DNA of 64,000 bases from an uncultured Agathobaculum sp. (GTDB lineage: Bacteria; Bacillota; Clostridia; Oscillospirales; Butyricicoccaceae), in the NCBI GenBank assembly GCA_944384725.1, contig CALWUJ010000005.1:46253-110252 (forward strand), in the 5' to 3' direction. Position 1 is the stretch's first letter. Each line of letters starts with the position of its first letter. Both the position numbers and the translations under genes were made by a program. Shown in pieces: positions 1-28,316 of the stretch. Under the pieces are notes generated by a model, which did not search any database, was not told the origin of the DNA, and worked only from the letters and a program-made list of their open reading frames with translations.

Positions 1-3000
1 TCTGCGCGCGGGCTGCTCGACTGCGGCAAGTGGCAGTATGCGGACGGTGCGCTGCAAATCCCGATGGATGAAGTCAGCGAGCGTCATTTTGCAAATGCGC
101 TGCGCCATCTGGAAGCACGCATTCTGCGCGAGTTGGGCGCGCCCTGTCCGGTGCATGCCGTGCGGGCGGAGGTCTGTGACTTCGTACCGGCATCCGACGC
201 GCCGCCGCGGGAAGAGATTTTGCAGAAAGCCATTGAGCAGGCATCTGCGGAAGTACCCGCCGAACCGAAACCGAAAAAGCCGCGTCCTGCACCGAAACAG
301 GAGCATACCGGCTATCAGCGTCCGCGCACGGAAAAGGTGCGTGAGGATGATTTGATTTTCGGCAAACTCATACAGGACCCGATCATCTCGGTTAACGAGG
401 CGATTGCGGCATATGACATGGTCACCATTCAGGGCGAGGTGTTCTTCACCGACAACAAGGACATTCACAGCAAGAAAACCGGCAAGGATTATGTCAAGAT
501 CGCGTTCGACATGACCGATCGCACCAATTCCGTGCGCGTTTCCAAGTTCCTTGCCGCGGATAAGGCGGGCGATACCGCTTCCAAGATCAAAAACGGTCTG
601 TACTGCACGGTGCAGGGCAAAATGGTGTACGATTCCTACGCGAAAGAGATGGTGCTCGAGCCGACCGGCATCGTCAAGGCCAAAAAGCCTGTGCGGCAGG
701 ACAAGGCTGAGGGCATGAAGCGCGTCGAGCTGCACCTGCACACCAATATGAGCGCGATGGACGGCATGACATCGACTGCGGCGCTGCTGTGCCGCGCGGC
801 GCAGTGGGGGCATCGCGCCATGGCGATCACCGATCACGGCGTAGCGCAGGCGTTCCCTGAAGCGTTGCACGCGCAGGAGGGCAAGCAGAAAAGCATCATT
901 GGGGATATGAAGATCATTTACGGCATCGAAGCGTATTACATCAACGATGAGGACACGCTTTCGGTTGTGCGCGGCAAATCGGCCGAGCCGCTGACCGGTA
1001 CATTTATTGTTTTTGACCTTGAGACAACCGGGCTGAACCCCGCAAGCGAGGAAATCACCGAGATTGCGGCGGTACGCATTGTGGACGGTGCAATTCAGGA
1101 TAGCTTCCAGACATACGTCAATCCGCACAAGCCCATTCCCGAGGAAATCACTAAGCTGACCGGTATTTCGGATGAGACGGTTGCGGATGCGCCCGAGCTT
1201 GCCGAAGCCGTGCCGAAGTTCCTTGCGTGGGCGGGCGAGGGAAAATATCCTCTTGTCGCGCACAATGCGGGCTTCGATATGGGCTTTTTGCGCACAGCCT
1301 GCAAGCGGCTGGAAATCGAGCGGGATTTTACCGCCATAGACACGCTGGAAATGAGCCGCCTGATGCTGCCGCATCTGCATAAGTTCAAGCTGAACATTCT
1401 GGCAAAAGAACTGGCGGTCGGCCCGTTTGAGCATCACCGCGCGAGTGAGGATGCGGCTGTGCTGGGGCGCATTTTTGTAAAGCTGCTCGCGCGGCTCAAA
1501 GACGAGCTGCATGCGGTCACCACGGCGGATATCAACCCTGTCCTTGCCGCAACGACCGATCGCAAAAACAAGCTGAAAAACCTGCCGCGGTATCACTTTA
1601 TCATTCTGGTGAAAAACCAGGCGGGACTGAGAAATCTGTATCAGCTGATCTCCAAAAGCTTTCTGGAATACTACAATAAGCGTCCGATCATGCCGCGTTC
1701 AGAGCTTATCTGCCACCGAGAGGGACTGATTTTCGGCTCAGCATGCGAAGCGGGCGAGGTGTTCCGCGCGCTGACAAACGGCGCGGAGTGGGACGAGCTG
1801 AAGCGGCTCGCATCTTTCTATGATTATCTGGAGATCCAGCCGATCGGCAACAACCAGTTTATGGTCGCTAAAGGAATGGCAAAGGATGACGAGCAGCTGC
1901 GAGACTGGAACCGGGACATTTTACGGCTGGCCGACGAATTAGGGAAACCCTGCTGCGCGACCGGCGACGTACACTTCCTTGAGCCGGAGGACGAAGCCTT
2001 CCGCCGCATCCTGATGGCGGGGCAGGGTTTTGGTGACGCGGACAATCAGGCGCCGCTGTATTTCAAATCGACTGACGAGATGCTCAAGGAATTTTCCTAT
2101 CTCGGTGAGGATCGCGCGTATGAGGTCGTCGTCAAAAACACCAATATGATCGCGGACATGTGTGATGTGATCCGTCCCGTGCCGCGCGAGAACTACCCGC
2201 CGCACATCGACGGCTGCGAGAACGATCTGCGTAACATGTGTTACGAAAAGGCAAAGCGCATTTACGGCGACCCATTGCCTGAAATGGTGCAGGCGCGGCT
2301 TGACCGTGAGCTGAACTCGATCATCGGCAACGGCTACGCAGTTATGTACATCATTGCGCAAAAGCTGGTGACCAAGTCACTGGCGGACGGCTATCTGGTC
2401 GGTTCGCGTGGTTCGGTTGGCTCGTCACTGGCGGCGTTTATGTCGGATATCACCGAGGTAAACTCGCTTGCGCCGCACTATCTGTGCCCGGATGACAAAT
2501 ATGTTGAGTGGCATGAGGAATATTCCTGCGGTGTCGATCTGCCGGATAAAATCTGCCCGAATTGCGGTAAACCGCTGACCAAGCAGGGCTTTAACATCCC
2601 GTTTGAGACTTTCCTCGGCTTTGAAGGCGACAAGGTGCCCGATATCGACCTGAACTTTGCGGGTGAATACCAGTCTCGCATCCATTATTATACGGGTGAG
2701 ATTTTTGGGCATGACCATGTGTTCCGCGCGGGCACCATCGGTACGGTTGCGGAAAAAACTGCCTACGGTTATGTCAAAAAATATATGGATGAGCGCGGTA
2801 TCGAGTGCTCGCGTGCGGAGGAAAACCGCCTTGCGGCGGGCTGCACGGGTGTGCGCCGCACCTCGGGACAGCACCCGGGCGGTGTCGTTGTCGTGCCGAA
2901 GGAAATTGAGATTTACGACGTTTGTCCGGTGCAGCATCCGGCGGACGACCCGGATTCGGATATCATCACGACCCATTTTGAATATCACTCGATCGACGCG

Positions 3001-4083
3001 AACCTTTTGAAGCTCGACGAGCTGGGGCACGATGATCCGACCATGATTAAGCATCTGGAAAACCTGACCGGCGTCAATGCGCAGGAGATTCCGCTCGATG
3101 ACCCGGACACCATGAGCCTGTTCCACTCGTGCAAGGCGCTGGGGTACACGGGCGAAAACCCGGACACCGATCCGATTCTGGGTGACCTCGGCTGTCTGGC
3201 GGTGCCGGAGTTTGGCACCAAGTTCGTGCGCGGCATGGTGAGGGAGACACATCCCTCGACCTTTGCCGAATTGGTTTCGATTTCCGGCCTGTCGCACGGT
3301 ACGGACGTATGGCTGGGTAACGCGGCTGATTTGGTACGGAGTGGCATTCCGCTGTCCGGCTGTATCTGCTGCCGTGACGATATCATGAACTATTTGATTT
3401 TGCAGGGCGTGCAGCCCAAGCTGTCGTTTAAGACGATGGAATCTGTCCGTAAGGGCAAAGGCCTGACCGAGGAAATGGAGGGCGCGATGCGGGAGCAGAA
3501 CGTGCCCGACTGGTATATCGATTCCTGCAAGAAGATCAAATACATGTTCCCCAAGGCACATGCGGTGGCGTATGTTATGATGGCATTCCGCATCGCATGG
3601 TTCAAGGTACACCGGCCGCTTGCGTTTTACTCGGCTTACTTTTCGGTGCGTGCCAAGGGTTTTGATGCCTCCTGCATGATTAAGGGGGACAAGGTCGTGC
3701 AGGACAAGCTGCGCGAGCTGGCAGTTAAGGAAAAGGAAAAGACCATCACCGCAGCAGAAAAGGAAATGTCCACCACGCTCGAGGTCTGCCATGAGTTTTA
3801 CCGCCGCGGCTTTGTTTTTGAGCCGATGGATATTTACGCATCGGATGCAACGACTTTTCTGGTAACCGAAAACGGACTGATTCCGCCGTTTACTTCGATG
3901 CCCGGCATCGGCGAACAGGCGGCGCAGAACATTGTGGAAGAGCGCAAAAACGGAAAATTCCTCTCGGCGGAGGAACTGACGGTACGTTGTCCCAAGGCTT
4001 CCAAGTCGGTTGTGGAGCTGCTCGACCAGATTGGCGCGCTTGGCTCGATGCCCAAGACAACACAGATTTCGCTGTTTGCATAA
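1..4083 (+). CDS. polC: DNA polymerase III alpha subunit, Gram-positive PolC type (5' end outside window)
   Basis: The replicative polymerase of low-GC Gram-positives. The frame is open from base 1, so the N-terminus lies upstream; 1360 residues are present against about 1440 in the family. Numbered from base 1, the order is an OB-fold region, a PHP-domain motif (HLHTN near 244), an inserted DEDDh proofreading exonuclease (FDLETTGL, D339 and E341), a Cys4 zinc knuckle (CPNC near 850), the palm catalytic PDIDLNF (D881, D883), and a C-terminal helix-hairpin-helix region (PGIGEQAAQNI). The exonuclease placed inside the PHP region separates PolC from DnaE. It ends 29 bases before the next gene. 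Confidence 0.98.
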   Translation, partial: SARGLLDCGKWQYADGALQIPMDEVSERHFANALRHLEARILRELGAPCPVHAVRAEVCDFVPASDAPPREEILQKAIEQASAEVPAEPKPKKPRPAPKQEHTGYQRPRTEKVREDDLIFGKLIQDPIISVNEAIAAYDMVTIQGEVFFTDNKDIHSKKTGKDYVKIAFDMTDRTNSVRVSKFLAADKAGDTASKIKNGLYCTVQGKMVYDSYAKEMVLEPTGIVKAKKPVRQDKAEGMKRVELHLHTNMSAMDGMTSTAALLCRAAQWGHRAMAITDHGVAQAFPEALHAQEGKQKSIIGDMKIIYGIEAYYINDEDTLSVVRGKSAEPLTGTFIVFDLETTGLNPASEEITEIAAVRIVDGAIQDSFQTYVNPHKPIPEEITKLTGISDETVADAPELAEAVPKFLAWAGEGKYPLVAHNAGFDMGFLRTACKRLEIERDFTAIDTLEMSRLMLPHLHKFKLNILAKELAVGPFEHHRASEDAAVLGRIFVKLLARLKDELHAVTTADINPVLAATTDRKNKLKNLPRYHFIILVKNQAGLRNLYQLISKSFLEYYNKRPIMPRSELICHREGLIFGSACEAGEVFRALTNGAEWDELKRLASFYDYLEIQPIGNNQFMVAKGMAKDDEQLRDWNRDILRLADELGKPCCATGDVHFLEPEDEAFRRILMAGQGFGDADNQAPLYFKSTDEMLKEFSYLGEDRAYEVVVKNTNMIADMCDVIRPVPRENYPPHIDGCENDLRNMCYEKAKRIYGDPLPEMVQARLDRELNSIIGNGYAVMYIIAQKLVTKSLADGYLVGSRGSVGSSLAAFMSDITEVNSLAPHYLCPDDKYVEWHEEYSCGVDLPDKICPNCGKPLTKQGFNIPFETFLGFEGDKVPDIDLNFAGEYQSRIHYYTGEIFGHDHVFRAGTIGTVAEKTAYGYVKKYMDERGIECSRAEENRLAAGCTGVRRTSGQHPGGVVVVPKEIEIYDVCPVQHPADDPDSDIITTHFEYHSIDANLLKLDELGHDDPTMIKHLENLTGVNAQEIPLDDPDTMSLFHSCKALGYTGENPDTDPILGDLGCLAVPEFGTKFVRGMVRETHPSTFAELVSISGLSHGTDVWLGNAADLVRSGIPLSGCICCRDDIMNYLILQGVQPKLSFKTMESVRKGKGLTEEMEGAMREQNVPDWYIDSCKKIKYMFPKAHAVAYVMMAFRIAWFKVHRPLAFYSAYFSVRAKGFDASCMIKGDKVVQDKLRELAVKEKEKTITAAEKEMSTTLEVCHEFYRRGFVFEPMDIYASDATTFLVTENGLIPPFTSMPGIGEQAAQNIVEERKNGKFLSAEELTVRCPKASKSVVELLDQIGALGSMPKTTQISLFA

Positions 4084-4112
4084 GCAGCATGGCATAAAAG
4101 GAGGGACCCTGC

Positions 4113-4457
4113 GTGGCAAAATACGAAAAGCAACTGACTGGCGATTTTGACGCATTTCTCGATTACTTATTTGATGGCATCATGAACGGCAGTGCATCGG
4201 CCTCTTACGAGGACGGCAGCGACTGGACAGCAGATGGTGTACGCGTGGCAGTGCGTGTATTTGAACGCTTCAGCTGGACGGGCAGCAATCGCGTGAGCCT
4301 GAACCTGACGCTGGCCGGGCAGGGGAACAGCCTATTTTTGATGGCGATTACTTCGGGCGGCAGTCAGGCAATGTTCTGGAAACTCAACACCATGGGGGAG
4401 GAGAGTTTTCTGGACAAGGTGATCGAACTGGCTGAGCAATACGGCGGAGGTGCATGA
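4113..4457 (+). CDS. Small conserved protein, possibly DUF6054 family
   Basis: 114 residues, soluble, no signal peptide or transmembrane segment. It starts at GTG with AAAGGAGGG seven bases upstream. The alternating hydrophobic pattern in the middle (VSLNLTLAG, LFLMAITSGG) looks like a small beta-sheet fold followed by a C-terminal helix. It resembles from memory the DUF6054 proteins of Clostridia, but no function is known to me. Its stop overlaps the next start (ATGA), so the two genes are probably translated together, downstream of polC. Confidence 0.75.
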   Translation: MAKYEKQLTGDFDAFLDYLFDGIMNGSASASYEDGSDWTADGVRVAVRVFERFSWTGSNRVSLNLTLAGQGNSLFLMAITSGGSQAMFWKLNTMGEESFLDKVIELAEQYGGGA

Positions 4458-5416
4458 GCTTGTACTGGATTTGCTTCGGGGACAGCGCTAAGGGATGCTT
4501 GGCAGAGACATGTAGATCGCTCGATGCCAAAATGGATGCAAAGCATATTCTTGCACTTTCGGACGATTATTCACAGGGCGATATCCGGGATGTGACCGAC
4601 CGCGCTGCGCGCGAGGATATATTGACACCGTGGCGCGGCGACCCAGAACTGGATGGGGCGTGGCAGGCAGAATATCAGGCGCGGCACTGGGATGTGATCG
4701 ACCGGTTGGACAGGGTCGATGGAGCGGTCATCTGGTATGCGGGTGGCAATGCGCTCGAGCAGTGCGGCCTGCGGTATGTGGTCAGCCGTTTGTATCAAAA
4801 ACAGATTCCGGTTTGGGCAACAGAAGTTGGGGAAGTCCCGTTGAATGAGATCCGTGAGCCGGAAGGAACGGGCGGAAACGTAGTCGCAGTGAGCATTCTT
4901 ACCAATAATCGCTTGGTAAATGCGCTGCTGCGCTTCATTCCGCGCCCTCTTCTGGTGCGCTATGCCGCGCGGATGGACCGTCGGGCGCGTGAGGAGCGTG
5001 CCGCAAAGGGTGGAAAAGTAAAGTATAGTCTGGTAGGCGAAATGGAGACAGGCGCGGCGGCGTATTTTTACAAGCGCCGCCGTCAGCTGACCGCAACCGA
5101 ACAAGCCGCCCTCTTGACCGATTGGAAGCGCATGCAAGAGGAAAATATGCCGCTGCGCGCGATGGTGGATGGAAAAGTGCGGTCGGTTTCGGAGGATTTT
5201 TATGATGAGATCATTTTGTCCTGTGTGCCGGAAGAGGAAAATCGTGCCGCGCTGACTGTTGGCCGGGCGATTGCCAAACTCGATGAAACGGGCAACCGGG
5301 TCAGCGATATGCTGATTTTTTCCCGTGTCCGCGCACTGGGTGCCGCGGGCCGGATCACTATTGTGAAAGACGGCGCGACCTATCGCGATATGATCATCCG
5401 TAAAAACGGGGGTTGA
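4454..5416 (+). CDS. DUF1835-like domain protein
   Basis: 320 residues. The N-terminus (WICFGDSAKGCL) matches the opening of DUF1835 proteins, which often carry a C-terminal DUF3658-like domain; the C-terminal third here (ILSCVPEEENRAALTVGRAI and onward) fits that arrangement. No membrane segment. The biochemical role of the family is not known to me. It overlaps the previous stop by four bases. Its own stop codon lies inside the -35 box of the histidine operon promoter. Confidence 0.7.
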   Translation: MSLYWICFGDSAKGCLAETCRSLDAKMDAKHILALSDDYSQGDIRDVTDRAAREDILTPWRGDPELDGAWQAEYQARHWDVIDRLDRVDGAVIWYAGGNALEQCGLRYVVSRLYQKQIPVWATEVGEVPLNEIREPEGTGGNVVAVSILTNNRLVNALLRFIPRPLLVRYAARMDRRAREERAAKGGKVKYSLVGEMETGAAAYFYKRRRQLTATEQAALLTDWKRMQEENMPLRAMVDGKVRSVSEDFYDEIILSCVPEEENRAALTVGRAIAKLDETGNRVSDMLIFSRVRALGAAGRITIVKDGATYRDMIIRKNGG

Positions 5417-5442
5417 CAGGCGGCATACAGATATGGTATTAT
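5413..5442 (+). promoter_or_regulatory. Promoter of the histidine operon
   Basis: TTGACA (5413-5418) and TATTAT (5437-5442) are separated by 18 bases, a good sigma-70/SigA match. The -35 box contains the TGA stop of the preceding gene. The expected transcript leader is only about 30 bases, too short for a T-box. Confidence 0.75.
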
Positions 5443-5478
5443 TTTAACGCGATAAAGCGATAAAGGAGTTTTGCGGCC

Positions 5479-7113
5479 ATGAACCGTTTTCGGATTTCCA
5501 CCCCTGAGGGTACACGCGATCTGCTGTTCGCGTCCTGCCGTGTGCTGCGGCAGACTGAGCGCGCGGTGCGTACTGCGCTGGAGGGGTGCGGATATAGTGA
5601 GATCATTACGCCTGCGGTTGAGTATTTTGATGTGTTTGCGCAGGCAAACCCTGAACTCGATCAGGAGAATATGCTCAAAATCATCGACCGTTCGGGACGT
5701 ATCTGCGTTGCACGTCCGGATAACACCACGCCGATTGCCCGCATTGCGGCGACCCGTTTGGATGACGCGGCGCTGCCTGTGCGGCTGTATTATAGTCAAA
5801 AGGTGTTCCGCTCGGTCGTGGGCGGGCACGGGCACAAGGGTGAGTTTTTGCAGGTCGGCGCGGAATTGATCGGCGCGGACGGCCTTGCAGCGGATCAGGA
5901 TATTCTGTCGGCGGCCTTCAGTGCGTTGACCGGAACGGGTGTGGACAATTTCCGCATCGAACTCGGTCATGCGGAGATCTATAAGGCGCTGATCGAAGAA
6001 TTGGGCGTGGACGCACAGACGGCAGAGAGCATCCGCCGCCTGATCGAAAACAAGTCCTTTGCGGCACTGGGTGATGCACTGGCACCTTATGGCGAGCGTC
6101 CGGCTGCCAAGGCGCTGGGCGCGATGCCGCAGCTGTTCGGCGGCGTGGAGGTGCTCGATCAGGTTGAGGCGCTGACCGGAAACGTGCGCGTGTTGGGTGC
6201 GGTGTCCTATCTGCGCCGGCTGTATCAGGCGCTTGATGCGGCAGGCTATGGTAACCGTATCATGATCGATCTCGGCTTGGTGCATGAGATGGATTATTAC
6301 ACGGGCGTGATGTTCCGCGGCTATATCGGCGGTGCGGGCGCGGCGATCCTGTCTGGCGGACGGTATAATGCACTGTGCGCCAAATTCGGCAAGGATCTGC
6401 CGGCAGGTGGTTTCGGTATCGACGTGGAGCGCATTGCGGACAGCTTGCAGGGCGCGGCGCGTCCCGAGGCGGCGACCCGCCGCGATACCGTGCGCATTGC
6501 ACTGACCAAGGGGCGTCTGGAAAAGAAAACACTTTCGCTGCTCAAAGCGGCAGGGTATGATATCTCCGAGCTGGAAGCCGGTTCGCGCAAGCTGATTTTC
6601 ACCTTGCCGGATGCAGGGGTCGAGATCGTGCTGGCTAAGGCGGCGGACGTCATTACCTATGTCGAGCACGGCGTGTGCGATATGGGCGTGGTCGGCAAGG
6701 ACACGATCATGGAAAAGGGCGGCAGCTTTTACGAGATGGTTGATCTCGGCTTTGGAAAGTGCCGTTTTGCGCTGGCGACCAAAAAGGGCAAGGATGTGTA
6801 CGGCGGCTATAAAACCCCAGTCATTGCGACCAAGTACCCGGCGGTCACAAAGGCGTTCTTTAATAAAAAGAACATGGATGTGGAGACGATCAAAATTGAA
6901 GGTTCCGTAGAGCTTGCCCCGCTGCTGGAACTCGCGGATGCCATCGTGGATATCGTGGAAACAGGCACGACGCTCAAGGAAAATGGCCTTGAGGTCATCG
7001 AGGATGTTGCTCCCATTTCCGCGCGTGTGATCGTCAATCTGGCGAGTGCAAAGATGAAGAAAGCCGCCATCCAACAGGTGATTTCCGATCTGGAAAGCGG
7101 TTTGGAGGGATAA
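5479..7113 (+). CDS. hisZG: HisZ-HisG fusion: ATP phosphoribosyltransferase with built-in regulatory subunit
   Basis: First step of histidine synthesis, joining ATP and PRPP. Residues 1 to about 325 are a HisZ module, a histidyl-tRNA synthetase-like regulatory subunit (opening TPEGTRDLL, motif-2-like ARPDNTTPIAR, motif-3-like GGRYNALC). A short Ala/Arg-rich linker follows. Residues 338-544 are a complete short-form HisG (VRIALTKGRL, then VEHGVCDMGVVGKD, and the PRPP-binding DIVETGTTL). Short HisG normally needs a separate HisZ, so one chain supplies both. Start ATG has AAAGGAG upstream. hisD follows one base after the stop. Confidence 0.96.
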   Translation: MNRFRISTPEGTRDLLFASCRVLRQTERAVRTALEGCGYSEIITPAVEYFDVFAQANPELDQENMLKIIDRSGRICVARPDNTTPIARIAATRLDDAALPVRLYYSQKVFRSVVGGHGHKGEFLQVGAELIGADGLAADQDILSAAFSALTGTGVDNFRIELGHAEIYKALIEELGVDAQTAESIRRLIENKSFAALGDALAPYGERPAAKALGAMPQLFGGVEVLDQVEALTGNVRVLGAVSYLRRLYQALDAAGYGNRIMIDLGLVHEMDYYTGVMFRGYIGGAGAAILSGGRYNALCAKFGKDLPAGGFGIDVERIADSLQGAARPEAATRRDTVRIALTKGRLEKKTLSLLKAAGYDISELEAGSRKLIFTLPDAGVEIVLAKAADVITYVEHGVCDMGVVGKDTIMEKGGSFYEMVDLGFGKCRFALATKKGKDVYGGYKTPVIATKYPAVTKAFFNKKNMDVETIKIEGSVELAPLLELADAIVDIVETGTTLKENGLEVIEDVAPISARVIVNLASAKMKKAAIQQVISDLESGLEG

Positions 7114-7114
7114 T

Positions 7115-8416
7115 ATGTTTTTGAAAACCGTGCTCGCGGACGGACAGGCCGAGCAGACTGTCATCCGTGAGATGAAAGCGCGTGCAGCGGGCGCACGCGG
7201 CGATATCGAGCAGACCGTTCGCGCGATTATGGATGATGTGCAGGCGCGCGGCTGGGACGCGGTCTGTGAATATGCGAAGAAATTCGATAAAAGCGAGCCG
7301 TATATCATCGAGCCTGCGCAGCTCGATGCGGCTTATGCTGCTTGTTCGCCCGCGCTGATTGCCGCGCTTGAGAAAGCGGCAGCGAATATCCGCGACTACC
7401 ATGAGCAGATGCTGGCCAAGTCGTGGGAGTGGAAGCGGTCGGAGGGCGAAGTGCTTGGCCAGACTGTGCGCGGCCTTGCGCGCGTCGGCCTGTATGTGCC
7501 GGGCGGCACAGCGGCCTATCCGTCGAGCGTGCTGATGAACGCGATCCCGGCGAAGGTGGCGGGCGTGGGCGAGCTGATTATGGTCACGCCGCCGACCGAA
7601 AACCTGTCCAATGAAGTGCTGGCGGCTGCCAAGATCGCGGGCGTGGATACCGTTATCGCGATCGGCGGCGTGCAGGCGATCGCCGCACTGACTTATGGTG
7701 CGGGCTTTATTCTGCAGGTGGATAAAATCGTCGGCCCGGGTAACGCCTATGTCGCGGCGGCGAAAAAGCTGGCCTTCGGCATGGTGGATATCGACATGAT
7801 TGCAGGTCCCTCCGAGGTGCTGGTCATTGCCGACCATACGGCCAATCCGACTTGGGTTGCGGCTGATCTGCTTAGTCAGGCCGAACACGATCGGCTTGCT
7901 TCGGCTGTTCTGCTGACCGACTCAATGGCACAGGCGCAGGCGATTTCTTGTGAAATGGAGCGTCAGGCAAGGGAACTGCCGCGCTGGGATATCGTCAAAG
8001 AAAGTGTAGCGAATTATGGCTGCGCGATCGTGTTTGACGATTTGAAAGACGCCTGCAAGATGGCGGATGTGGTCGCGCCCGAACATCTGGAAGTTGTGAC
8101 CGCGAACCCACGTGAGTGGTTACCGTACCTGCACAACGCGGGCGCGATCTTCCTCGGACAGTATGCGCCCGAGCCGCTGGGCGATTACATGGCAGGTCCC
8201 TGCCATGTGCTGCCGACCTCGGGAACGGCGCGGTTCTTCTCGCCGCTCTCGACCGATGCGTTTTTGAAGAAAACGAGCGTGATCGAGTACACGCGCGACG
8301 CACTTGAAAGCTATGCGCAGGACATTATCGCGCTCGCGCAGAGTGAGCATCTGGACGCGCACGCCAACTCGGTCGCAGTGCGCTTTGCGGAGGTGAAAGA
8401 CGATGCGGAAGGCTGA
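7115..8416 (+). CDS. hisD: Histidinol dehydrogenase
   Basis: Last two oxidations from L-histidinol to L-histidine, NAD- and zinc-dependent. 433 residues, the normal length. Family motifs are clear: GLYVPGGTAAYPSSV, the nucleotide-region IAGPSEVLV, and the C-terminal zinc/active-site stretch beginning PEPLGDYMAGPCHVLPT. It starts one base after hisZG and overlaps hisB by 14 bases, so it is firmly within the operon. Confidence 0.98.
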   Translation: MFLKTVLADGQAEQTVIREMKARAAGARGDIEQTVRAIMDDVQARGWDAVCEYAKKFDKSEPYIIEPAQLDAAYAACSPALIAALEKAAANIRDYHEQMLAKSWEWKRSEGEVLGQTVRGLARVGLYVPGGTAAYPSSVLMNAIPAKVAGVGELIMVTPPTENLSNEVLAAAKIAGVDTVIAIGGVQAIAALTYGAGFILQVDKIVGPGNAYVAAAKKLAFGMVDIDMIAGPSEVLVIADHTANPTWVAADLLSQAEHDRLASAVLLTDSMAQAQAISCEMERQARELPRWDIVKESVANYGCAIVFDDLKDACKMADVVAPEHLEVVTANPREWLPYLHNAGAIFLGQYAPEPLGDYMAGPCHVLPTSGTARFFSPLSTDAFLKKTSVIEYTRDALESYAQDIIALAQSEHLDAHANSVAVRFAEVKDDAEG

Positions 8417-16704: not shown

Positions 16705-16990
16705 TTTGAACAACGCAAGTTGGCGATGACCGGAAAAGTAGCGTCTGGAATCCACAAGAGAGAGCCGCCGGGTGGTGCGAGGCGGTGGAGGAAGGAAAGT
16801 GCGAAAGTCCTCCGTGAGCCGAGCGTCTGAAATGGGATGAAACAGGGCCCTGTGTAAGGCGTTCCGCGCGATCTGCGTTAAAAGATCAACTGAGTGGCCG
16901 CAGCATGCAATGCATGAAGCGCGGCAAGAAGAGTGGTACCGCAGAGGAATAGTCTTTGTCTCTTTGTAGAGACAGAGGCTTTTTTTATTT
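16705..16990 (+). ncRNA. T-box riboswitch leader of ilvB
   Basis: The leader holds the AGTA element of the specifier loop (near 16737), the stem-I distal features GAGAGCCGCC and GGTGCGAGGCGG, and the nearly invariant T-box bulge sequence AGAGTGGTACCGC (16930-16942). Directly after it, GTCTTTGTCTC pairs with GAGACAGAGGC and is followed by seven T (16952-16987), the terminator that competes with the antiterminator. Uncharged tRNA should allow read-through into ilvBNCD. I could not settle which specifier codon is used. Confidence 0.9.
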
Positions 16991-22762: not shown

Positions 22763-22851
22763 CACCGAAAATGCAAATGAAAACGTCTTGTTTCCGGTAA
22801 AGTGAACCGCTTCCCGTTAAGAGAACAGTGAAACAATATCAAGTTTTCCCG

Positions 22852-22883
22852 GCTGGCAGCTAATATGTTGCCAGCTGTTTTTT
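22852..22883 (+). terminator. Terminator of pyrE
   Basis: GCTGGCA pairs with TGCCAGC around a loop of about ten bases and is followed by six T. Confidence 0.75.
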
Positions 22884-22909: not shown

Positions 22910-22938
22910 TTGTCAGGCAGTAGCGTGTACGGTATAAT
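22910..22938 (+). promoter_or_regulatory. Promoter of the kinase-lectin gene
   Basis: TTGTCA (22910-22915), 17 bases, TATAAT (22933-22938), about 35 bases before the start codon. Confidence 0.8.
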
Positions 22939-22973
22939 TGTTGCAGGCAAATATATTCCGAAAGGGTTTTGGC

Positions 22974-24377
22974 ATGGAGAATCAGGATAACCGCCTGCGA
23001 AGCTATGCGCCGCTTTGGGGGCATTGGATGCCGGAAAAGAGAATATATCGCAGCGGCAGCTGCAGCGTTTATACTCTGTCCGGCGGGCAGCCGGAACAGG
23101 GCTTTGATTGCGTGGTCAAGGTGGTCACTATTCTTGGGCAGAGTGAGCAGGCTGAGCGTCAGCTGGCTGATGCACAGCAGGAGATTGCGGCGCTCGAGCG
23201 GCTGCGCGGCTGCGCACAGGTAGTCACGCTTTATGATTATGCCATTCGCCCCATTGAGGAAGAGGGCGAGGTGGTCGGCTGGGATGTCTTGCTGCGCATG
23301 GAGAAGCTGGATTGCGTGGCCGAGCTGCTGCGCGAGGGCGAGCCGCTGTCCATGGCGGAGGTGGAAACACTGGCCTGCGATATTGCGGCTGCGTTATCGG
23401 CAGCTCATCGCGCCGGGCTGATCCACCGGGATGTCAAGCCCGCTAACCTGTACCGCACGGCAGACGGGCATTTTCAGCTCGGGGATTTCGGCGTTGCTCG
23501 CCGCTGCCGCACCGGCATGCTGCAAACTATGACCGGCACCGCCGCTTACATGGCGCCCGAGGTCGCCCGGGGCGATGTATATGACGGCCGCGCCGATCTG
23601 TATTCGCTGGGCATCGTGCTGTATCAGCTGCTTAACGGCGGGCAGTTGCCGCTGACAGACGAGGAGACGCCCTATGATGCCCGCGAGGACGCTGTGCGCC
23701 GCCGTTGGCAGGGCACGAAGCCGCCGCCCCCGCCGGAGGGCAGCAGGCGACTGAAAAAAATTGTACTGCGTTGCTGCCAGCCGCAGGCACAGCACCGGTA
23801 TGCTTCGGCGGATGCGCTGTTGTGCGCGCTGACGCGCCGCTCTAACCGTGGTTGGAAGGCCGCTGCTGCTGTAGGCTGGGCCTGCGCGGCGGTGTCTGCC
23901 GTATTGTTGGCATTTTGGAAGCCGTCGGTATCGCCCGAAGCAACGGAGCTTGCGACCGTCGCGCCAGAACAAGGCCCGCGCTATGCGGTTGTGCAGGCCG
24001 TCATGACTTGGGATGAGGCGCGTGTCTACTGCGAATCCCGCGGCGGCCACCTTGCCACGATCACCAGTCAGCAACAAATGGACACGATCATTGCGTTGCT
24101 TGAGGAAAGCAATTTGGAAACCGTCTGGCTGGGGGCGAATAACTATACCAGCAGCGGAGGGTTCCAATGGGTCAACGGCGAACCGTTCGAATTTGCCGCA
24201 TGGGGCGTTGGTGAGCCAAACAACCAGAATGGACAGGAGCATTATCTGATGATGTACAATAAGGACGATCAGGGTTGGGTGTGGAACGACTCGGTTTCCA
24301 ACGGCACGGCAGCCTTTGACTCGCAGCATTGCGGCTTTGTCTGTCAGTGGGACGACAGCAATGGATCGGGCAGCTGA
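22974..24377 (+). CDS. Transmembrane Ser/Thr protein kinase with external C-type lectin domain
   Basis: 467 residues. Residues 25-285 form a Hanks-type kinase: ATP-anchoring K49 in VVKVV, catalytic HRDVKPAN (D153), DFG (D171) and APE (194-196). The glycine loop is degenerate (RSGSCSVY). A transmembrane helix lies near 295-315. Residues 330-465 form a C-type lectin-like domain: WDEARVYCESRGGHLATI, WLGA, W.NGE, then EPNN and WND, the calcium/sugar-binding pair of sugar-binding lectins, and GFVC. So the kinase is inside and the lectin outside, suggesting a glycan sensor. Start ATG has GAAAGGG upstream. It overlaps the next gene by 17 bases. Confidence 0.92.
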   Translation: MENQDNRLRSYAPLWGHWMPEKRIYRSGSCSVYTLSGGQPEQGFDCVVKVVTILGQSEQAERQLADAQQEIAALERLRGCAQVVTLYDYAIRPIEEEGEVVGWDVLLRMEKLDCVAELLREGEPLSMAEVETLACDIAAALSAAHRAGLIHRDVKPANLYRTADGHFQLGDFGVARRCRTGMLQTMTGTAAYMAPEVARGDVYDGRADLYSLGIVLYQLLNGGQLPLTDEETPYDAREDAVRRRWQGTKPPPPPEGSRRLKKIVLRCCQPQAQHRYASADALLCALTRRSNRGWKAAAAVGWACAAVSAVLLAFWKPSVSPEATELATVAPEQGPRYAVVQAVMTWDEARVYCESRGGHLATITSQQQMDTIIALLEESNLETVWLGANNYTSSGGFQWVNGEPFEFAAWGVGEPNNQNGQEHYLMMYNKDDQGWVWNDSVSNGTAAFDSQHCGFVCQWDDSNGSGS

Positions 24378-25425
24378 AATCGCGCGGTGTGAGACGGTCG
24401 GTGACGTGCTCGCGCTGCTGAACGATGATGAGGGCTGGGCTGAGTCGTGGCAAAGCTTTTTTGCCGGGCTGCTGGATGCTTCGGGGCTGAGTTATATTCG
24501 TTTTGCCGCCCGCTGTGGGTTGAGCAAAAATACGGTCAAACGCTGGCGGCTCGAGGGAGGCGCGCCCAAAAGCCGGGACACCTATATCAAGGTTGGATTT
24601 GGTGCGGTCATGGCGCCGCAGGCGGTCAGCGATATGCTGTCGCGCTACGGCGGCTACTGCGGGCTCAACCCGCGCGACCCGTTCGACGCCTGCTGTGTGT
24701 TCTGCCTGCAGCGGAGGATGCAGGGCGACATGCAGTATGACTACGCGGCGGCTGACGCACTCTACCGGCGGCTGCTGGCCGAAGAGCAGCCGGGCGGAGC
24801 GTCCAGCCTGACCACCACACACCTGATGGCACAGTTGTCGGCGGTCGACACGGAGCAGGCGCTCGCAGCGTTTTTGCAGACCTTTGGCGCGGAACTGACC
24901 GGCCGCAAGCAAAAGCTGGAGCGATATCTGGACGAATACCTGACTGTGCATCGGCTGGAAGCCGCACGCGACGGCGGCAGCGGCAGTGTGCACAGTCTTG
25001 GTCTGCCGCCGTGGATAGAAAAGCAGCTGTCCCAACTGCGCCGCCACGGGATCGTGCCGCGCCGCCGCAGCCTGACCGCGCTTGGGCTGCACCTGAACAT
25101 GACACTTGACGAGTTGGATGTGCTGCTGCGCTACGCCGGGATGGAGTCGCTTCGCGCACGTGACCGGCTGGAATGCGTACTGATTTACGCTTTACAGCAG
25201 CTGGCGCTGACCCATCCCGAGCTGGCGTTGGGAAATGCGACCGCGTTGCTCGCGGTCACGCGTGACGCCAAGACCCGCCGTCGCTGCACTGAGCTGGCGC
25301 GCGAATATTGGCAGGCAGGATACCAAAGTGAGGCGGAGGATGTGGAAAGCGTGGCAGCGTATGTGCGCCGCGTGCTGGAGCAGATGGAACTGGACGAAGC
25401 GGACGAATTACTCGGTCTGCTCTGA
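24361..25425 (+). CDS. Double helix-turn-helix protein coupled to the kinase
   Basis: 354 residues from the ATG at 24361, overlapping the kinase gene end, so coupled translation is likely. Two XRE-like helix-turn-helix segments are visible: about 43-75 (SYIRFAARCGLSKNTVKRWR) and about 234-275 (LTALGLHLNMTLDELDVLLRYAGM, followed by LRARDRLE). The middle is helical with several cysteines (CCVFC near 118). No membrane segment. I do not recognise a named family. From the overlap I infer it is the regulator, substrate or adaptor of the kinase. Confidence 0.75.
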   Translation: MDRAAEIARCETVGDVLALLNDDEGWAESWQSFFAGLLDASGLSYIRFAARCGLSKNTVKRWRLEGGAPKSRDTYIKVGFGAVMAPQAVSDMLSRYGGYCGLNPRDPFDACCVFCLQRRMQGDMQYDYAAADALYRRLLAEEQPGGASSLTTTHLMAQLSAVDTEQALAAFLQTFGAELTGRKQKLERYLDEYLTVHRLEAARDGGSGSVHSLGLPPWIEKQLSQLRRHGIVPRRRSLTALGLHLNMTLDELDVLLRYAGMESLRARDRLECVLIYALQQLALTHPELALGNATALLAVTRDAKTRRRCTELAREYWQAGYQSEAEDVESVAAYVRRVLEQMELDEADELLGLL

Positions 25426-25604: not shown

Positions 25605-26975
25605 ATGCATCGTGCTTTTCATGTGATACAACGACTGTTTCTGCTTTGTTTTATTCTTGCCGTCATCGGTATTCTGCTTGCCGGCGGATGGCTTGCCGGT
25701 CTGTGTGTCCTTGCTGCCGCCGGCTGGATGGTACGCGGTCAAGTGACCATCCGACATTTCACGCTTTGGCTGTTGATCGGCGGTTTCCTGCTGCGTGTGG
25801 CGGTCATTCTGGTGCTCAATCCGCCGATCATCAGCGATTTCGGACTCCTATTTGAGGCCTCGCAGAGCCTATCGGCGGGTGATACTTCATTCCAGCAGAT
25901 GCGGTATTTCTCTCTATGGGCCTATCAGAGTGTGTTTGTTGCCTGGCAAGCGATGTTCCTTGTGGTTTGGAATAACCCATTGATGATTAAAATAGTCAAT
26001 GCTTTGCTCAGCGCAGGCACAGTGTGTCTGCTCTACCGTTTGGCGCGCGGTCATGTGCGAGAGAGCACGGCGCAGGCTGCCATGCTGATGCTGACGGCTT
26101 TCCCTTTTGCGCTGACCTTGCCTACCGTGTTGACCAACCAAGTCTCTTCAGCATTCTTTTTGACAATCGGCGCATGGCTGCTTGCCAGCCGTGATTGCAC
26201 ACGTCTGGGCTTCTGGCGCTTTCCGCTTGCCGGACTTGCACTGCAGGCAGGTAATCTGCTGCGCAGTGAGGGCATCATCCTTGTGGTGGCTGCGTTGGCG
26301 TATGCGTTTTTCACCGTACTGCACCGACCAGAGACGGTCAAGCGCATCCTGTGCGGTATGGCAGCGCTATTTGTGGTTTACGGAGCGGTCGGCGTGGGTG
26401 CGGATGCCGTTGTGCGCGCGAGTGGGCTGAATGTAAACGGAACGGCAAACGGATACCCCGGCTGGAAATTCGTCACCGGTCTCAATTTCAGTACGTCGGG
26501 CGGCTATTCGACGGATGACTGGAATCAGCTTTCCGCGACATTCGATGAAAGTGGCCCGACCGAAGCGACTGAGGCCGTGCAACACGAGCTGATTTCCGAG
26601 CGTTTGTCCGCTGGACCGAAAGCACTGCTGCTGCATGCGGTGCATAAATGCAAGTTGCTCTGGTGCAATGATGCATTGAACTGGGCGTTCGGCCATTTGC
26701 AGTTACACGATTACCTGACTCTTGTTTATGATAGCATTCAGAAAATGGATCGACTGCTGTTCTATGCCGCGCTGCTGCTGGCGGCCTTTGGGGTGTGTCG
26801 CCCATGCCGCACGCCCGCGGCCTATCTTCCGCTGTTCGTCGTGTTCGCTGCATTCTGCGTGTTCCTGCTGATCGAAGTACAGCCGCGCTATGCCTATCTG
26901 CCACAGTTGTTCCTGTTCTGCGGCGCATCGCTCGGTCTCGATCGCCTGATCGGAAAGGAGGAAAACCATGCCTAA
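25605..26975 (+). CDS. Polytopic GT-C-type glycosyltransferase (lipid-linked sugar donor)
   Basis: 456 residues with about ten or more hydrophobic segments. The loop after the second to third helix contains the aspartate in PPIISDFGLLFEA, as in GT39/PMT-like and GtrC-like GT-C enzymes that use polyprenyl-phosphate sugars. The C-terminus ends FLLIEVQPRYAYLPQLFLF, the R/Y motif common in this group. ATG at 25605 has AAAGGAGG nine bases upstream. It overlaps the GtrB-like gene by eight bases. Acceptor unknown; a cell-wall polymer or surface protein is likely. Confidence 0.8.
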   Translation: MHRAFHVIQRLFLLCFILAVIGILLAGGWLAGLCVLAAAGWMVRGQVTIRHFTLWLLIGGFLLRVAVILVLNPPIISDFGLLFEASQSLSAGDTSFQQMRYFSLWAYQSVFVAWQAMFLVVWNNPLMIKIVNALLSAGTVCLLYRLARGHVRESTAQAAMLMLTAFPFALTLPTVLTNQVSSAFFLTIGAWLLASRDCTRLGFWRFPLAGLALQAGNLLRSEGIILVVAALAYAFFTVLHRPETVKRILCGMAALFVVYGAVGVGADAVVRASGLNVNGTANGYPGWKFVTGLNFSTSGGYSTDDWNQLSATFDESGPTEATEAVQHELISERLSAGPKALLLHAVHKCKLLWCNDALNWAFGHLQLHDYLTLVYDSIQKMDRLLFYAALLLAAFGVCRPCRTPAAYLPLFVVFAAFCVFLLIEVQPRYAYLPQLFLFCGASLGLDRLIGKEENHA

Positions 26976-27906
26976 AATTTCGATCGTCGTGCCCTGCTAT
27001 AATGAGCAGGCCGCGCTGCCGCTTTTTTATCAGGAGATTACCCGCGTGGCGGGCGAGATGGACTATGCGGAGTTTGAATTCGTGTTTATTGATGACGGCT
27101 CTAAGGACGACACGCTGCCCACGCTGCGTTGTCTGGCCGCACAGGATGGGCGCGTGCGCTTTGTCTCGTTTTCGCGCAATTTCGGCAAGGAAGCCGGCAT
27201 GCTCGCCGGACTTGAGGCTGCGACGGGTGACTTTGTCGCCACCATGGACGCTGATCTACAAGATCCGCCCGCGCTGCTGCCTGAATTATATAAAGCCGTG
27301 ACCGAAGAAGGCTACGACTGCGCCGCCACCTGCCGCACCACGCGTGCGGGCGAGCCGCTGGTCCGCTCGTTCTTCGCGCGCATGTTTTATAAACTCATCA
27401 ACCGTATCTCGGACGCTGACATCGTCGACGGCGCGCGAGACTATCGCCTGATGCGCCGCGCGATGGTGGACGCGATTCTGTCCATGCGCGAGTACAACCG
27501 TTTTTCTAAGGGGATTTTCGGCTGGGTTGGCTTCAAAACCAAATGGGTGCCGTTTGTCAATGTTAAGCGCGTTGCGGGCGAGACAAAATGGTCGTTTTGG
27601 AAGCTGTTCCTGTATTCGCTCGAAGGCATCGTCGCGTTTTCGACCGCGCCGCTCGCGCTGGCGAGCGTGTTGGGCGTGCTGATCTGCCTGATCGCGTTCG
27701 TGTTCGTTGGGGTTGTGCTGGTCAAGACACTTGCTTTCGGTGACCCGGTCGGCGGCTGGCCGAGCATGATGTGCGTTATGCTGTTCCTTGGCGGCGTGCA
27801 GCTGCTGTGCATCGGCATTTCCGGACAGTATCTGGCCAAAACCTATCTGGAAGCCAAGCGCCGTCCGGTCTATCTGGTGCGGGAGACCGAGGAGGGTGTG
27901 CAATGA
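26968..27906 (+). CDS. Polyprenyl-phosphate glycosyltransferase (GtrB/DPM1-like, GT2)
   Basis: 312 residues. The GT2 domain opens ISIVVPCYNEQAALPLFY and has the metal-binding MDADLQDPP and the acceptor-loop region FSKGIFGWVGFKT. Two C-terminal transmembrane helices (about 230-260 and 265-290) are typical of GtrB and place it at the inner face of the membrane, where it loads a sugar from a nucleotide donor onto undecaprenyl phosphate. It provides the donor for the GT-C enzyme upstream. Confidence 0.94.
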   Translation: MPKISIVVPCYNEQAALPLFYQEITRVAGEMDYAEFEFVFIDDGSKDDTLPTLRCLAAQDGRVRFVSFSRNFGKEAGMLAGLEAATGDFVATMDADLQDPPALLPELYKAVTEEGYDCAATCRTTRAGEPLVRSFFARMFYKLINRISDADIVDGARDYRLMRRAMVDAILSMREYNRFSKGIFGWVGFKTKWVPFVNVKRVAGETKWSFWKLFLYSLEGIVAFSTAPLALASVLGVLICLIAFVFVGVVLVKTLAFGDPVGGWPSMMCVMLFLGGVQLLCIGISGQYLAKTYLEAKRRPVYLVRETEEGVQ

Positions 27907-28316
27907 ACAAGCTGCACGGCCTGATTGACCGCAAATTCGCCAAATTTCTACTGGTCGGCGTGATCAACACGCTGGTCGGCACCGCGATCATGTTCGGGCT
28001 GTATAACCTTGTGCACTGCACTTACTGGGTGTCAAGCGCGGTGAACTATATCCTGACCAGCATTCTGAGTTTTTTCTTGAACAAATACTTTACTTTCGGC
28101 AGCCGGAAGAAGAGCGCGAGCGAGGTCGTGCGTTTCGCGGTCAACATTGCCGTGTGCTATCTGCTGGCCTACGGCATTGCCAAGCCGCTGTGTGTTGCGG
28201 TACTTTCGGGCGCATCGACTACCATACGGGATAATATCTCGATGCTCTGCGGTATGTGTTTATTCACTGTATTTAACTACTTTGGGCAACGTTTTTTCGC
28301 GTTCCATGTAAAATGA
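27903..28316 (+). CDS. GtrA-like membrane protein (putative lipid-sugar flippase)
   Basis: 137 residues with four transmembrane helices. The pattern FAKFLLVGVINTLVGTAIMFGLY and YILTSILSFFLNKYFTFGS is diagnostic of the GtrA family, thought to help move polyprenyl-phosphate sugars across the membrane. ATG overlaps the GtrB-like stop (ATGA), so the real start is 27903 although the frame is open further upstream. Confidence 0.92.
   Translation: MNKLHGLIDRKFAKFLLVGVINTLVGTAIMFGLYNLVHCTYWVSSAVNYILTSILSFFLNKYFTFGSRKKSASEVVRFAVNIAVCYLLAYGIAKPLCVAVLSGASTTIRDNISMLCGMCLFTVFNYFGQRFFAFHVK

Follow-up and report, generated by a model that had tools for sequence, protein, structure and literature searches.

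Can a bacterium join a protein kinase to a C-type lectin across its membrane, and which partner inside the cell would such a receptor address? An open reading frame of 467 residues from an uncultured Agathobaculum sp. (contig CALWUJ010000005.1) raises both questions. We use the term window for the whole stretch of DNA analyzed, which is 64,000 nucleotides long. The closest named relative is also an uncultured Agathobaculum (locus L014, 93% identity). The gene and the signals in front of it are the following.

22974..24377, + strand: receptor gene encoding a kinase, a transmembrane segment and a lectin, 467 aa open reading frame
22850..22877, + strand: terminator-like stem-loop of 11 pairs (7 GC), then TTTTTT, 3' of the upstream pyrE-like gene
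22910..22938, + strand: promoter-like TTGTCA-17-TATAAT, matching the consensus at 11/12 positions
22961..22966, + strand: AAAGGG, likely ribosome-binding site, read from the sequence

The hairpin and the promoter-like site both lie between the pyrE-like gene and the kinase-lectin gene. Terminator-like sites were found six times in 2951 scanned bases, with 2.8 expected, and the one listed here has the most pairs; promoter-like sites numbered two in the scanned stretch compared to an expectation of 1.1. TTGTCA and TATAAT hexamers at a spacing of 17-18 nt precede the gene at six of nine loci, which are the loci of the genus (the window, L014, L015, L016, L017 and L040), and an AAAGG-type sequence occupies the place of a ribosome-binding site in the upstream alignment of the loci. 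A longer reading from a TTG codon at 22938 would begin on the last base of the conserved -10 element, which supports the ATG at 22974 as the start. The kinase-lectin gene thus appears to possess a promoter-like site of its own, and this site, like the co-encoded gene D described below, was absent from the initial annotation of this DNA. Further upstream, the window also contains a T-box leader (16717-16966, + strand; Rfam RF00230, 98.9 bits) in front of ilv-like genes.

The N-terminal part of the protein is a kinase domain with one unusual element.

22974..23843, + strand: Ser/Thr protein kinase domain, residues 1-290 (Pfam PF00069)
23046..23072, + strand: degenerate glycine-rich loop, residues 25-33; lacks the first and third canonical glycines and has an invariant C30
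23424..23447, + strand: catalytic loop HRDVKPAN, residues 151-158, invariant
23484..23492, + strand: DFG, residues 171-173; DFS in L016, L017 and L020

Pfam PF00069 (Pkinase) matches residues 47-281 with an E-value of 1.2e-34 and 120.3 bits against a cut-off of 31.7. The kinase motifs had been described as complete, and this is accurate for the lysine, the glutamate, HRD and DF, which are intact; it does not extend to the glycine-rich loop, which is degenerate in all nine kinase-lectin proteins. The loop reads IYRSGSCSVY in the window where most related kinases have LGxGSxGxVY, and the first and third glycines of GxGxxG are absent in 9/9 members. The assignment to the kinase family therefore relies on the whole-domain match in spite of the missing GxGxxG pattern, and kinase activity is a prediction. 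With such a loop catalysis may be weak or absent, and the receptor may have a scaffold role. Such a pseudokinase or atypical kinase would pass the ligand signal to the product of gene D by a change of conformation instead of phosphorylation. The retention of the loop glycines by most related kinases and their loss from every member agree with this, as does the replacement of DFG by DFS in three of the nine. Other proteins of the order that carry a kinase-type domain, a membrane segment and a lectin (L096, L097 and L098, discussed below) lack the N-lobe, HRD and DFG and point in the same direction. However, K49, E70, HRDVKPAN, DF and APE are invariant in all eight aligned sequences (the window and seven orthologues, L014-L020, with 57-93% identity to it), and drift would hardly have preserved them. 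We consider a scaffold unlikely for this reason and prefer a working kinase.

The C-terminal part was proposed earlier to hold a lectin-like domain with EPN and WND motifs outside the membrane, and the following features bear on it.

23859..23915, + strand: putative single transmembrane segment, residues 296-314 (hydropathy)
23979..24350, + strand: C-type lectin domain, residues 336-459 (Pfam PF00059 and PDB C-type lectins)
24213..24221, + strand: EPN, residues 414-416; invariant in 8/8, aligns to MRC2
24237..24239, + strand: E422; invariant in 8/8, aligns to MRC2
24282..24290, + strand: WND, residues 437-439; invariant in 8/8, aligns to MRC2

The five top-scoring 19-residue hydropathy windows begin at residues 294-298 (best mean 2.08), between the kinase and lectin domains. 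Together with the Pfam domains, they support the layout of a kinase, one membrane segment and a C-type lectin as predicted from sequence, with the kinase presumably inside and the lectin outside the cell. Pfam PF00059 (Lectin_C) matches residues 344-441 at 9.8e-14 (52.4 bits, cut-off 22.6), and both the EPN and WND motifs are invariant in 8/8 sequences, which bears out the earlier proposal. A WIGL-like core is present as WLGA in all eight aligned sequences. Residues 324-467, compared with the sequences of the PDB, matched 143 distinct entries at E <= 0.001; the best 60 of these are judged to be C-type lectins or to share their fold, and most are from animals. These matches argue for a lectin assignment. 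C353 and C457 are both invariant and compatible with one disulphide; long-form C-type lectins have a second disulphide, which is not evident in the lectin domain of the window. AlphaFold2 gave a low-confidence model of the receptor (eight sequences, mean pLDDT 52). A formylglycine-generating or sulfatase-type fold was considered as a candidate and rejected, because the Pfam list of the protein contains Lectin_C and no such family.

In animal C-type lectins, the EPN/E/WND residues are ligands of calcium and sugar. EPN, E422 and WND of the window align with EPNN...E...WND of C-type mannose receptor 2, and we take residues 414-416 and 437-439 to be the calcium/sugar site and E422 to be a further putative calcium ligand. 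Sugar binding is absent from many C-type-lectin-like domains, and the one here could instead recognize a peptidoglycan fragment, a protein or a lipid, or bind calcium alone, in which case the protein would not be a glycan receptor. Elsewhere in the order, certain lectin domains have EPN replaced by EPS or EPT, which is in keeping with such a ligand. Yet all five positions of site 2 (E and N of EPN, E422, N and D of WND), presumably the calcium ligands, are kept in 8/8 sequences and align with the mannose receptor domain. A non-sugar ligand seems doubtful to us, if well worth bearing in mind, and a glycan is the ligand we favor.

Conservation also bears on a different role for the lectin, that of a hypervariable display domain diversified by a diversity-generating retroelement (DGR). 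The attraction of this idea comes from cyanobacteria, where DGR variable proteins are reported to combine a Ser/Thr kinase with a C-type-lectin-like domain (PMC7517822). Against it, the genome of the window (78% complete) has no match to the reverse transcriptase family PF00078, and the lectin domain has not diverged more than the kinase: identity to the window is 64-97% for the lectin, 58-94% for the kinase and 33-78% for the linker, so that the lectin is conserved about as well as the kinase. We regard a DGR target as very improbable indeed.

Immediately downstream of the receptor, and overlapping it, is a second gene.

24361..25425, + strand: gene D, 354 aa, HTH-type partner protein; overlaps the kinase gene by 17 nt
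24373..24717, + strand: D residues 5-119, first copy of a kinase-linked XRE-like HTH domain, with the HTH LSKNTVKRW (hhalign)
25054..25200, + strand: D residues 232-280, second, partial copy of the domain (hhalign)

Each of the nine distinct loci found (the window, L014-L020 and L040) has gene D next to the kinase-lectin gene, the D of L019 being cut by the contig end. Eight loci have a complete D; with start codons as picked by us, it shares 8 or 17 nt with the receptor gene at seven of them and begins after a 13 nt gap at the eighth, L018. In a sample of 394 genomes of the order, the three strong matches to D and the three strongest matches to the kinase fall in the same three genomes (G000, G015 and G018), and all three carry the kinase-lectin fusion. 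Of ten other genes around the pair in the window, matches were detected at L014 only (PMT, GT2, GtrA and LysR). L015, L016 and L017 share another downstream gene, as judged by eye, so the neighborhood is not wholly free to vary. The kinase-lectin gene and D are what all loci have in common. Downstream of D, genes for a PMT-type glycosyltransferase, a GT2 and GtrA are found in the window (25605-28316, + strand) and in L014; no counterpart was detected at the remaining seven loci, and they could represent a surface-glycan cassette.

D had no match to a curated family. Its HTH_23 score of 18.8 bits is below the Pfam cut-off of 24.6, and for this reason we call it HTH-like only. Searches with D recovered small proteins of approximately 145 aa, and an alignment of this small family, A7, was made from 26 of 30 small-HTH loci (L137, L144, L150 and L151 left out). 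In hhalign comparisons with A7, the first half of D aligned over 112 columns and the second half over 49 columns, both at E 3.1e-10. D therefore looks like an internal duplication whose second copy has no recognizable HTH. An AlphaFold2 model of D from eight sequences was of low confidence (mean pLDDT 52).

Is D a DNA-binding regulator, or a signaling adaptor with an HTH-like fold? Its sub-threshold HTH scores would suit an adaptor, and a profile of its N-terminal part retrieved no DNA-binding protein from the PDB, the two matches both being dehydratases. Yet the HTH GLSKNTVKRW is recognizable, with S55, K56, N57, T58, K60 and W62 invariant in eight of eight aligned D sequences, and one small relative, L038, scores above the Pfam HTH_31 cut-off (28.7 vs 27 bits). 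The small family gave weak PDB matches (best E 0.0033); among the 13 listed, seven are judged to be XRE-type and the other six are DnaI and glutathione transferases; the XRE-type majority also speaks for a regulator. The company kept by relatives of the domain speaks for the adaptor. Macro domains bind ADP-ribose, and fusion of the HTH domain to a macro domain is apparent in all eight frames inspected, with a Pfam Macro match in each of the four tested, which keeps an adaptor role of D conceivable. In addition, L033 and L034 have D-like genes in the vicinity of genes that resemble, by eye, those for PP2C, vWA and kinase proteins. On balance an adaptor is possible, though we would not expect it, and DNA binding by D is the reading we carry forward.

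The macro-domain proteins (L161-L168, in genomes G117, G287, G403, G371, G002, G257, G062 and G213) have the HTH domain C-terminal to the macro domain, which suggests that the kinase-linked HTH domain serves several signaling systems. In L033, genes resembling PP2C, kinase and vWA genes by eye form one cluster with a D-like HTH gene (1142-8210), an arrangement reminiscent of TerY-type phosphorylation triads.

The linkage of the small HTH family to kinases was counted at the best 30 small-HTH loci from the 394 order genomes, one per genome. A kinase lies within 1.5 kb of 25 of these loci, within 3 kb of 28 and within 5 kb of 29, as opposed to chance expectations of about 0.18 within 1.5 kb and 0.49 within 5 kb; the expectation uses rounded genome sizes and ignores genome relatedness and contig ends, and the excess is large. 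The one exception, in G160, is on a contig without a kinase (contig 46). Five of the 30 loci were seeds of the profile, which had been found through D and not through kinases; all five are among the 29 linked loci, and without them the count within 5 kb is 24/25. Counted in the fetched loci alone, linkage is seen at 23 of 30. Eight further HTH matches listed from the same 30 genomes (E 3.1e-16 or better) include six within 5 kb of a kinase. Viewed from the other side, the 30 genomes hold 98 kinases at E 1e-10 (two to seven per genome), and 35 of these have a small-HTH neighbor within 5 kb. This count of all kinases in the same genomes supersedes a weak control with lectin loci, in which a kinase match was found at one of 24 loci, itself a fusion, and nine lectin regions comprised three kinase-type fusions and six without a kinase. 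Matches to the small HTH family occur in 170 of the 394 genomes, a figure that is not a count of kinase-linked genes, since the eight weaker matches inspected are the macro-domain fusions.

Linkage extends to the relatives of D itself. A kinase frame is present in the 10-12 kb regions around all seven weaker D matches outside the genus. In 20 regions around related kinases with other C-terminal domains, a D-like gene directly follows the kinase in three (L121, L122 and L124) and lies 2.3 kb downstream in one more (L114), and none was detected in the remaining 16; L121 and L114 were recognized as D-like only after iteration of the profile.

These related kinases also inform on the sensor. The kinase domain of the window has matches at E 1e-30 or better in 35 of the 394 order genomes, 32 of them besides the three kinase-lectin genomes, and the kinases in these 32 are 32-44% identical to it. 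Among those inspected, the C-terminal regions are leucine-rich or of PASTA, Ig or InlB-repeat type (by eye), and the sensor therefore appears to be exchangeable between related kinases.

The kinase-lectin fusion itself has a narrower distribution. Lectin_C was detected in 12 of 87 genomes of the family, and kinase fusions account for six of these 12, all of them in the genus, which contributes 25 genomes. Scanning by pattern through one genome per species (84,980 species), an approach that reaches close relatives only, gave nine loci. Seven are kinase-lectin orthologues, of which three bear the label Oscillospiraceae or Avoscillospira, and two are kinase-only loci from Anaerolineae. At higher ranks, Lectin_C is found in 34 of 394 genomes sampled from the order and in 4 of 299 sampled from the phylum, both counts including the genome of the window. 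Lectin matches listed numbered 40, of which 30 have a locus. The HRD motif is present in six of 37 lectin frames scanned (13 family loci and 24 order loci); the loci end approximately 1.5 kb from the match, so some lectin N-termini are cut and a kinase farther upstream could escape. The gene was also considered as phage-borne, and this was rejected: 32 stretches of viral contigs matched the pattern and none encoded a relative.

A tree built from 40 kinase domains groups all nine lectin kinases into a single clade (100/100) that excludes L096-L098; several long-branched rows are placed unsurely, and only the nine-member clade and the separateness of L096-L098 are used here. L096 (5157-6608), L097 (4570-6204) and L098 (5381-6820, - strand) encode pseudokinase-type transmembrane proteins with C-type lectins in the same order. 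As noted above, N-lobe, HRD and DFG are absent from them. They have EPT or EPS followed by D-x-DGT-x-E instead of EPN, a different putative metal site, and the regions retrieved around them yielded no D-like gene. Their position in the tree and their EPT/EPS motifs lead us to think that a lectin has been joined to a kinase-type domain more than once, or so it seems. Other lectin-domain membrane proteins of the order (L090, L093, L094 and L095) include vWA-like ones, by eye, and a double-zinc-ribbon protein with a lectin in L095 (Pfam). The lectin domain may thus be an extracellular module that these bacteria use widely.

Taken together, the locus probably encodes a membrane receptor kinase that uses a C-type lectin as its outside sensor and the co-encoded D as a dedicated cytoplasmic effector, a reading to which we assign a rough probability of 0.55. 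It draws on the two domains and their order around one hydrophobic segment, all read from sequence, on the invariant motifs, on the overlap of the genes and on the presence of D at nine loci. A ligand, probably a calcium-dependent glycan, would bind the lectin outside the cell and cause the receptor to cluster or reorient; the kinase would then phosphorylate itself and D, and phosphorylation of D would alter its binding to DNA or to partners and so change gene expression. The pair of kinase-lectin and D suggests a two-part system that conveys an outside signal to gene control, and since related kinases of the order carry other C-terminal regions, some with D-like neighbors, such a unit would be comparable to a two-component system built on a Ser/Thr kinase.

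A broader proposal, which we offer tentatively and would not yet bet on, is that Oscillospirales possess a general class of such systems, a kinase that is often membrane-bound with a swappable sensor plus an XRE-like HTH substrate, of which the unit in the window would be a true calcium-dependent glycan-receptor version. If this is correct, a gut commensal may read host or microbial glycans through a lectin-receptor kinase straight to a transcription regulator. If functional, the tight linkage of a little-characterized HTH family to kinases would represent a widespread signaling class in an order of gut bacteria. Few bacterial Ser/Thr receptor kinases have a known ligand, and the canonical sugar site on this sensor offers a directly testable class of ligand. 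D provides a candidate substrate, and finding substrates is usually hard for bacterial Ser/Thr kinases.

Searches of the open-licence literature found no paper on a bacterial protein of a kinase and Lectin_C, with or without an HTH partner, and none on the linkage of such HTH proteins to kinases. Anti-phage kinases were tried as a source of similarity and rejected, since the best 25 of 34 matching PADLOC models align only up to residue 318 or before; D had no match among the PADLOC models. PASTA kinases (PrkC/Stk1) have a kinase inside, one transmembrane segment and a sensor outside, the layout also predicted for the window protein. The best NCBIfam match of the window protein is indeed NF033483 (PrkC/Stk1, 9.6e-37), but it differs from this family in its score (127.2 bits against an equivalog cut-off of 450), in a Pfam list without PASTA and in its degenerate glycine loop. 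One further kinase of the genome, 688 aa long, is PASTA-type by eye.

Plant C-type lectin receptor-like kinases join a lectin to a kinase across the membrane, with the lectin N-terminal. They resemble the window protein in placing lectin and kinase on opposite sides of the membrane; in contrast to it, they are eukaryotic, begin with the lectin and have no co-encoded HTH protein. In potato, two of 113 lectin receptor-like kinases are reported to be C-type (PMC7293193). The mannose receptors MRC1 and MRC2 are among the best matches of solved structure, with the calcium/sugar motif of MRC2 aligning, but unlike the window protein they are not kinases and are multi-domain animal proteins.

The nearest precedent found is the set of cyanobacterial DGR proteins, for which the authors of PMC7517822 propose ligand-controlled kinase activity. 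With L096-L098, they qualify the initial annotation, which had treated lectin-type sensors as unusual among bacterial kinases. The cyanobacterial proteins are bacterial, too, and share with the window protein a Hanks-type kinase followed by a C-type lectin fold at the C-terminus. They differ in being DGR targets with variable regions, while no reverse transcriptase was detected in the window genome at 78% completeness, and the window protein has a Pfam Lectin_C domain with EPN and WND together with a co-encoded HTH-like partner. The sensor-variable kinases of the same order have kinase domains 32-44% identical to that of the window protein; they have other C-terminal regions (LRR, PASTA, InlB-repeat and Ig-like, by eye) and mostly a canonical glycine loop, and 3/20 directly precede D-like genes.
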